Assembly (NCBI RefSeq): GCF_005518135.1
Contig: NZ_SULI01000001.1
Coordinates: 310,001-374,000 of the forward strand
Reading direction: 5' to 3'
Length of the DNA stretch: 64,000 nucleotides
DNA from: Shimia litoralis
GTDB lineage: Bacteria > Pseudomonadota > Alphaproteobacteria > Rhodobacterales > Rhodobacteraceae
This document shows positions 45,431 through 46,467 of this stretch, piece by piece. The notes below the pieces were generated by a model. It saw only the letters and a program-made list of their open reading frames with translations. It was not told the DNA's origin and did not search any database. A program made the position numbers and the translations under genes. The stretch's first letter is position 1. Every line of letters begins with the position of its first letter.

Positions 45431-45458
45431 TTCACAGGTTCTCTAAACTTGCTACAAT
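45431..45458 (+). promoter_or_regulatory. Possible promoter of the OmpA-like/lipoprotein pair
   Basis: TTCACA (45431-45436), 16-bp spacer, TACAAT (45453-45458). Pattern match only; the 226-bp gap 45289-45514 otherwise shows no gene. Confidence 0.35.
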
Positions 45459-45532
45459 GGCGCATATTATAAAAACCGTGCGCCCATCTAAAGTCGTGGC
45501 TTTGCGCCGGGTATATGGCAGAGGATATTGCT

Positions 45533-46108
45533 GTGTCGGATAAAAAATTTACCAAAGCTCGGGTCGCCTTGGGAGGATTTGCAGCCATTTGCTTGGCGCT
45601 GGTTTCCATCGCGCAGCCCGCAGCCGCACAAACCCAACGTACCGTTCTTGGACAAGAATATGTGCCAACTGTTTGGGTGGACCCCGATGGGTGCGAACAT
45701 TGGGTTATGGATGACGGTGTCGAAGGATACATGACTCCTCACGTAACCCGTCAGGGTATTCCTGTTTGCCGCCGCGGCAATGTCTGTGGGGTTATGAACG
45801 CTGATCAGTTCTTTGCGACCAATCAGTATTCCATTAACTCTGCAAACCGCCAGCGGTTGCAAGAGTTCTTCAAGACGGCAACGGCGTCTGCGTTCATCGT
45901 GACAGGTCACACCGATAGCCGTGCGTCTGACTCATACAACATGAAGCTCAGCTATAATCGCGCCAACTCGGTTGCCAAAGTCGCACGGTCCACAGGCGCG
46001 CGCGTCGTGGATGTTCGTGGATATGGCGAACGTATGCCACGTGCCTCTAACGGTACGTCGTCCGGCATGGCGCAGAATCGCCGTGTTGAAATCATCTGCA
46101 TTCGCTAA
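45533..46108 (+). CDS. OmpA-family protein with N-terminal W-V-D-P...D-D-G-V-E-G-Y module
   Basis: About 191 residues: signal peptide (ending QPAAAQT), then a 33-residue module (VWVDPDGCEHWVM to GIPVC) shared with the next gene, then an OmpA C-terminal peptidoglycan-binding domain (VTGHTDSRASDSYNMKLS, GYGERMP, NRRVEI). Four or more Cys suggest disulfides. GTG 45533 follows GAGG with 8-bp spacing; ATG 45515 would add six residues. Likely attached to the wall in the periplasm. Confidence 0.8.
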   Translation: MSDKKFTKARVALGGFAAICLALVSIAQPAAAQTQRTVLGQEYVPTVWVDPDGCEHWVMDDGVEGYMTPHVTRQGIPVCRRGNVCGVMNADQFFATNQYSINSANRQRLQEFFKTATASAFIVTGHTDSRASDSYNMKLSYNRANSVAKVARSTGARVVDVRGYGERMPRASNGTSSGMAQNRRVEIICIR

Positions 46109-46120
46109 GGGGAACAAGAT

Positions 46121-46417
46121 ATGAAAATCGTTCGAGGGATTCTCTTGGTGGGTGTTGTGGCTGCGATTGCGGCCTGTGACAACAAAGTCGACAAAACTGT
46201 CGACCGCGGGTTTGATACCAAGCACTTGAGCCAGCTTAAGGCCGGGATCTGGGTTGATCCAAATGGGTGTGATCATTGGATCATCGATGATGGTGTCGAA
46301 GGGTACCTTTCTCAACGCCTTGATAAATATGGTAAACCTGTATGTTCAGGCGCGGCACCTCCCGGTGTTGCAACAGGCCCCTTCAAAAAAGGGTCGGCAT
46401 TCAAAGACCAAATCTAA
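46121..46417 (+). CDS. Small lipoprotein sharing the W-V-D-P module
   Basis: A 98-residue lipoprotein: lipobox A-I-A-A-C with Cys19, then IWVDPNGCDHWII to GKPVC (residues 43-75), 19 of 33 positions identical to the module in the upstream OmpA-like protein, both Cys conserved. The last 20 residues are Gly/Lys-rich. Twelve bp separate it from the upstream gene and a terminator follows, so the two form an operon. Unknown function. Confidence 0.78.
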   Translation: MKIVRGILLVGVVAAIAACDNKVDKTVDRGFDTKHLSQLKAGIWVDPNGCDHWIIDDGVEGYLSQRLDKYGKPVCSGAAPPGVATGPFKKGSAFKDQI

Positions 46418-46438: not shown

Positions 46439-46467
46439 AAGCCGCGCATCTGTTTGCGCGGCTTTTT
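46439..46467 (+). terminator. Intrinsic terminator of the OmpA-like/lipoprotein operon
   Basis: AAGCCGCGCA / TGCGCGGCTT with loop TCTGTT and a T6 run. Confidence 0.9.

Follow-up and report, generated by a model that had tools for sequence, protein, structure and literature searches.

What joins two neighbouring genes for envelope proteins of different kinds, when both encode the same short segment marked by cysteine and tryptophan residues? The question is raised by a locus of Shimia litoralis at which the gene for an OmpA-like periplasmic protein is followed by that for a small lipoprotein. The joining of the outer membrane to the wall and the control of vesicle release are themselves open to question in this order since, according to the part of the article covered here, Rhodobacter sphaeroides and other Alphaproteobacteria have no known homologues of Lpp or of LpoA/LpoB (PMC10470522). 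The same part describes DalA (RSP_1200) of R. sphaeroides as a wall-binding lipoprotein of the outer membrane with predicted L,D-transpeptidases, Pal and an OmpA-family protein as co-precipitation partners, showing that such wall-binding lipoproteins matter in Rhodobacterales (PMC10470522). DalA was considered as the same gene as the lipoprotein studied here and set aside by size alone, its mass of about 18 kDa in the covered part of that article differing from the 98 residues of the latter. The DNA analysed, hereafter the window, is a stretch of 64,000 nt from S. litoralis (assembly GCF_005518135.1, contig NZ_SULI01000001.1, positions 310,001 to 374,000 of the forward strand). We find that the conserved paired module is real, that it is unrecorded in the libraries and literature searched, and that the proteins carrying it are otherwise of known kinds.

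Gene layout and distribution

As read from the open reading frames of the window, miaB and phoH flank the OmpA-like gene (45533..46108, plus strand, GTG start, 191 aa, with an in-frame alternative ATG start at 45515) and, after a gap of 12 nt, the lipoprotein gene (46121..46417, plus strand, ATG start, 98 aa). A promoter-like site precedes them on the same strand (45431..45458; TTCACA-16-TACAAT with TG before the second hexamer), being a weak candidate from a consensus scan with 10 of 12 matches, a score reached by 4 sites in the stretch against 1.6 expected. The hairpin scan placed an intrinsic terminator-like hairpin with a T run 3′ of the lipoprotein gene (46439..46464, plus strand). Comparable hairpins occur no further than 110 nt past the lipoprotein gene in 74 of 80 related loci, compared with none among 80 coding controls and 12 among 80 shuffled sequences. 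The two genes thus look like one transcription unit, and the operon assumed in the original prediction is supported, not proven, by these hairpins.

Of 551 relatives that were confirmed, the best 80 serve as the related loci; tblastn detected both genes in all 80, together with miaB in 77 and phoH in 79 on the stretch read, and the gene order miaB-phoH-ybeY-corC-lnt is conserved around the pair. Two annotated records place the pair again between miaB and phoH under the product names “OmpA family protein” and “hypothetical protein”. Three loci (L155, L156 and L158) lie on plasmids or megaplasmids: a Ruegeria pomeroyi megaplasmid carries the miaB-OmpA-like-lipoprotein-phoH block, accompanied by ybeY, lnt and a hemolysin-family gene, the same miaB-to-phoH block stands on a plasmid in Thioclava, and in Tritonibacter the pair is found on a 1.2 Mb plasmid, so that housekeeping genes reside on secondary replicons. 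In R. pomeroyi DSS-3 the two genes bear the locus tags SPO_RS19800 and SPO_RS19805.

Across the order, the module was counted in 142 of 196 genomes, with two copies in 129, one in 12 and four in a single genome; all 12 single-module genomes belong to one genus, another genome of which has two copies. Outside the family of the window, draws of 385 genomes from the class and 398 from the phylum yielded marginal partial matches only, with E from 0.005 to 0.01.

The shared module

Module copy 1 extends from W48 to C79 of the OmpA-like protein (45674..45769, plus strand) and copy 2 from W44 to C75 of the lipoprotein (46250..46345, plus strand), both following the pattern W-V-D-P-x-G-C-x-H-W-x2-D-D-G-V-E-G-Y-x8-G-x-P-V-C. 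That the two neighbouring proteins carry the same Cys/Trp module at this place was therefore borne out, as were the 19 identical positions originally claimed (19 of 32 by hand count); the length of 33 residues and the spacer of x7 given at that time are to be corrected to 32 and x8. In a single BLASTP comparison the OmpA-like protein and the lipoprotein match at E 1e-16, a likeness well beyond chance. Searched against its own genome at E up to 10, the lipoprotein matches itself and the OmpA-like gene (E 1.4e-12) and nothing else, and the genome holds two copies of the module.

For the comparison of pairs, 119 stretches were collected and 8 were set aside, leaving 111 pairs, 110 of them distinct (L063 and L192 are duplicates). 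The excluded stretches comprise L060, L065 and L077 with broken OmpA frames, L196 with a short one, L174 and L176, in which the pair could not be assigned by the length rule, and L184 and L185 with a lone lipoprotein. In L060, L065, L077 and L196 the lipoprotein frame is open beside the broken or shortened OmpA-like frame; since three of these four come from metagenome-assembled genomes, a sequencing or assembly error is possible.

The cysteines of both copies (C54 and C79 in the first, C50 and C75 in the second) are kept in aligned relatives. From the module onward, every OmpA-like protein of the 111 pairs has four cysteines and every lipoprotein two, and the Cys-Cys spacing of the two partners is 25/25 in 98 pairs, 26/26 in 12 and 25/26 in one. 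Such counts suggest internal disulfides, which would link residues 54-79 (module) and 85-189 (domain) of the OmpA-like protein and residues 50-75 of the lipoprotein. The module histidine is variable among aligned relatives, where Y, V, A, I, N, S or T also occur, and because it is not invariant a metal site is disfavoured relative to a disulfide. The structure prediction proposed with the original claim was run, and AlphaFold returned three short strands for either copy of the module, with the low block pLDDT of 52-71.

Searches for a known counterpart

The module had been put forward as undescribed, and in this respect the database search suggested at the outset sustains the claim: among the window proteins and the relatives' sets all Pfam-A and NCBIfam models stay below their cut-offs in the module region, the PDB gave no usable match, and no characterised domain found includes the module. 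Neither observation that could have spoken against the original claim, namely membership of a known characterised domain or confinement to this strain, was made, the module being conserved well beyond the strain. The PDB profile searches returned repeat propellers without one passing stretch (best E 5.8e-6) and otherwise matches with E of at least 0.35, and for the lipoprotein model, itself of low confidence, Foldseek had no match below E 1. No paper was recognised as dealing with the module in the open-access full text of one library.

The nearest resemblance is to PF20037 (DUF6440), which matched modules at E up to 1 in 12 of 25 cases, the best at 0.0019 and all consistently below threshold. 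By profile search it recurs in 21 of 32 lipoproteins and, within the wide set, in 6 of 30 (best E 0.0075); against the lipoprotein copy of the window it scores 13.3-14.3 bits with a cut-off of 26.5. A six-frame search of 101 genomes of the order with the same model identified the module, by coordinates, in 13 of the first 15 matches, with 0 of 101 genomes above the cut-off. Phrog_11767 matched all 32 lipoproteins (best E 1.1e-4), and a search of 61 genomes with it at E 0.001 came back empty. The resemblance of the module to PHROG families 11767 and 8801 and to PF20037 is a weak profile likeness, and the libraries name no function for them. PF20037 is an uncharacterised small family; a remote kinship of the module with it and with the PHROG families is possible, judging from these profiles. 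PF20037 and phrog_11767 have no match in five lactococcal phage records. A viral origin was considered and abandoned: the module alignment has no relative among viral contigs, and tblastn against phages gave weak matches (best E 4).

The OmpA-like protein and the lipoprotein

Read by eye, the OmpA-like protein begins with a predicted cleavable signal peptide ending in QPAAA and lacking a lipobox (45533..45628, plus strand). Its residues 93-183 (45809..46081, plus strand) form a peptidoglycan-binding domain of the OmpA family, matching PF00691 over this region only with 45.7 bits at a cut-off of 27.2. D128 and R143 are kept, and the Asp of the GxTD motif with the Arg at +15 is present in all 111 aligned pairs; we take these two residues to be the contacts with diaminopimelate of the stem peptide known from work on Acinetobacter baumannii OmpA. 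The predicted model has an OmpA-like fold, with Foldseek matches to PA0833 (E 8.6e-9), YfiB (1.7e-8) and 3td5 (6.5e-8), the last being a complex of A. baumannii OmpA and the stem peptide. Hence the wall-binding half is like that of OmpA-family proteins (PF00691; YiaD, YfiB, PA0833, Pal, OmpA) in score, fold and the Asp/Arg pair. The protein differs from them in the two-cysteine module ahead of the domain and in the means of anchoring: its 191 residues hold no barrel-sized region, and a lipobox-like motif upstream of the module is missing in 108 of 111 OmpA-like proteins and present in 3. An outer-membrane anchor of its own, barrel or lipid, was accordingly not found, such an anchor being a trait of OmpA or Pal that PF00691 does not demand. 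None of the 25 NCBIfam models listed (of 39) reaches its cut-off on this protein, including that of Pal (TIGR02802, 52.8 bits with a cut-off of 125.35).

The lipoprotein has its lipobox cysteine at position 19. A lipobox-like motif is found by pattern in 109 of the 111 lipoproteins, the remaining two reading LMGC. Residue +2 varies, Asp occupying it in 26 of 109 including that of the window; in Escherichia coli Asp at +2 is a signal for retention in the inner membrane. By score the lipoprotein does not qualify as Omp10 of alphaproteobacteria: NF041251 covers residues 1-49 only and scores 18 with 100 required. Published lists were also consulted. TM1040_3759, a “lipoprotein, putative” in the Rhodobacterales-specific list of the portion of PMC2241609 covered, was considered as a candidate for the lipoprotein and gained no support; the TM1040 megaplasmid is not among the lipoprotein matches. 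The vesicle proteome of Dinoroseobacter shibae is rich in outer-membrane lipoproteins and contains OmpA/MotB proteins, in the portion of that source covered (PMC7901474). The main text of the R. pomeroyi exoproteome contains no mention found of the terms sought for the pair (PMC2953401).

A proposed split tether between outer membrane and wall

Pal unites a lipid anchor and a wall-binding domain in one chain. The reading we prefer, tentatively and at somewhat short of an even chance, is that the present pair divides these two tasks, the outer-membrane lipid anchor and the OmpA-type wall binding, between two chains and works as one functional unit, a split tether from outer membrane to wall in which the modules form the joint. 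The OmpA-like protein would be exported and, having no membrane anchor of its own, would hold the peptidoglycan stem peptide by its OmpA-family domain, while the lipoprotein would supply the lipid anchor, presumably after lipidation and in the outer rather than the inner membrane. Each 32-residue module, a predicted three-stranded meander probably closed by its internal disulfide, would dock on the other, or else the two may sit side by side on one shared partner; membrane and wall would thereby be joined non-covalently. The unbroken conservation of cysteine counts and of Asp/Arg, the agreement of cysteine spacing within 110 of the 111 pairs, the stem-peptide complex among the structural matches and the division of the lipobox between the partners argue for such a tether. 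Against it stand the low confidence of the module model, the Asp at +2 in the lipoprotein of the window and in part of its relatives, and the A-x-A signal-peptide pattern, which in its simple form is missed in 24 of the 111 OmpA-like proteins.

YfiB, both alone and with YfiR, is among the folds nearest to the OmpA-like model, which brings in the idea of a signalling role for the lipoprotein, either in regulating its OmpA-like partner or in reporting the state of the envelope, as in YfiB/YfiR. This we consider very unlikely: the 71.8 bits obtained with the YfiB model NF053585 are suggestive, and they fall below its cut-off of 128; moreover, the OmpA-like protein is itself no lipoprotein, and, by names only, neither a YfiR nor a diguanylate cyclase is annotated between miaB and lnt in R. 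pomeroyi.

Joint behaviour of the two copies

In a tree built from the 62 modules of 31 pairs, one branch with support 97/92 parts all OmpA-side modules from all lipoprotein-side ones, which makes the duplication an old one and upholds the duplicated module of the original prediction. The module tree came with warnings of few columns and long branches (the rows of genomes G400 and G571), and in the lipoprotein tree the bootstrap was unsettled; these warnings weigh on the tether as well. The similarity of modules is practically equal inside one genome (0.455) and across genomes (0.449); gene conversion between the copies was thus not seen and does not explain their coupling.

Coupling of rates was measured on a PhoH plus MiaB tree with 102 of the 111 pairs and 201 branches, 9 pairs having been left out because PhoH or MiaB was too short. 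Between the two modules the residual rates correlate with r 0.757. The corresponding values are 0.410 and 0.418 for the OmpA-like and lipoprotein modules, respectively, with the OmpA domain, 0.518 for a pair of windows within the latter, and -0.24 to 0.12 for comparisons that involve equal-length windows of PhoH or MiaB. This excess speaks for the tether; it is, however, carried largely by few long branches. Without the 5 largest branches r becomes 0.398 for the module pair, 0.290 for the OmpA-like module with the domain and 0.318 for the lipoprotein module with the domain; without the 10 largest the values are 0.284, 0.171 and 0.262. By Spearman on all branches they are 0.310, 0.194 and 0.298, so that the module pair barely exceeds the lipoprotein module with the domain. 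Binding of one common partner could, moreover, couple the rates too.

The weakness of the coupling once long branches are dropped is also what would be expected if a tandem duplication had left two proteins that now work apart, their linkage being merely inherited at a locus of conserved order, miaB-phoH-ybeY-corC-lnt. This explanation is unlikely in our estimate. Evidence against it comes from the absence of conversion noted above, from genomes without the pair and from a pair found elsewhere. The stretch upstream of phoH was read in 20 of 54 module-negative genomes of the order and in 2 with a lone lipoprotein. In 17 of these 22 miaB is within reach, and it was not seen in the other 5. Both genes are absent in 12 of the 17, where 82-222 bp separate the miaB and phoH matches, other sequence lying between in 5; no single partner was detected at the locus in any of the 17.

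One genome (G400) has a second, ectopic pair at another locus (L183:2501-3378), with both genes adjacent and with Y-N-G-x-Q-G-F and I-E-G-T-G-A-F replacing D-D-G-x-E-G-Y. The 6.5 kb around it contain no match to miaB or phoH, and its neighbours, from open reading frames judged by eye, are a LysR-type gene and a short-chain-dehydrogenase-like gene. In the trees of the lipoprotein, the OmpA domain and both modules it groups with the pair of genome G571 (100/100, 100/96, 100/98 and 100/100), and the branch lengths of the modules, 1.81 and 3.63, are far above the 0.45 of the OmpA domain. The ectopic pair is therefore adjacent and jointly diverged away from the miaB-phoH locus, which speaks against neighbourhood by mere inheritance. 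Across the family retention, loss and change of the module copies tend to go hand in hand, as if the two proteins acted as a single unit. The function originally proposed, ligand binding or mutual pairing, is compatible with these data and receives indirect support from the joint absence, the partly coupled rates and the ectopic pair.

Relatives outside the pair

A third set of possible module relatives consists of small lipoproteins, which were counted in 90 of 196 genomes. In the best 30 matches, seed included, they adjoin a YkuD-type L,D-transpeptidase gene at 30 of 30 loci; the seed (L210:868-1161, plus strand; further loci L212-L241) has a neighbour scoring above the YkuD cut-off. These lipoproteins, with the motif D-G-C-Y ... 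P-I-C, are without any NCBIfam match or any Pfam match above cut-off, and in the 23 that were aligned the cysteine spacing equals that of the module. Their profile compared with the wide module alignment at probability 91 and P 1e-6. Among 9807 open reading frames of module-bearing loci it ranked module frames in all of the first 50 places and in 93 of the first 100, where ten column-shuffled profiles gave 0-1 in the first 50. The first link was weak (E 7.6e-4 in one of 398 genomes, with a wider profile), and with close-clade module alignments alone the probabilities are 14 and 47. If the kinship holds, the transpeptidase-linked lipoproteins would be remote relatives of the module. The window genome has no match to this family at E 0.001, and at the loci read no module-bearing OmpA partner stands beside its members.

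Lone module lipoproteins also occur in one genus (L184:4998-5315, the same gene as L087:1369-1686, and L185); in genome G252, judged by eye, such a lipoprotein adjoins a glutamine-synthetase-like gene. Because lone and transpeptidase-linked module lipoproteins exist, pairing of two modules is not obligatory, which counts against the tether. They point to its main rival, in which the modules would not touch one another and would share a single target, for instance peptidoglycan, some other envelope protein or an L,D-transpeptidase, the module being a targeting tag for sites of wall remodelling. Constant proximity to the YkuD-type gene, the profile kinship and the lone lipoproteins favour this arrangement; its starting point in a weak match and the low close-clade probabilities weaken it, and it gives a less direct account of the joint absence and of the ectopic modules diverging together. 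On balance we hold it to be rather doubtful.

Meaning for the Rhodobacterales envelope

With the split tether as the preferred reading, the shared module, its old duplication, the linkage, the terminator, the retained cysteine pairs and peptidoglycan residues, the joint absence and the partly coupled rates are seen directly in the sequences; the export, the lipidation, the outer-membrane location, the disulfides, the docking and the tether itself are predictions built upon them. A broader and more doubtful proposal, conceivable all the same, is that a hitherto unnamed module closed by a disulfide serves Rhodobacterales as a standard part for docking envelope lipoproteins to wall-binding and wall-crosslinking machinery, once as a split tether, the specificity of which would have been re-coded jointly in the ectopic pair, and again in a small lipoprotein beside an L,D-transpeptidase gene. 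The jointly diverged ectopic pair is a natural test of docking specificity. If the kinship with the transpeptidase-linked lipoproteins holds, the presence of the module beside a crosslinking enzyme would tie tethering to wall remodelling, and the conserved two-gene unit with its matched module is a small, testable candidate for the joining of outer membrane and wall.
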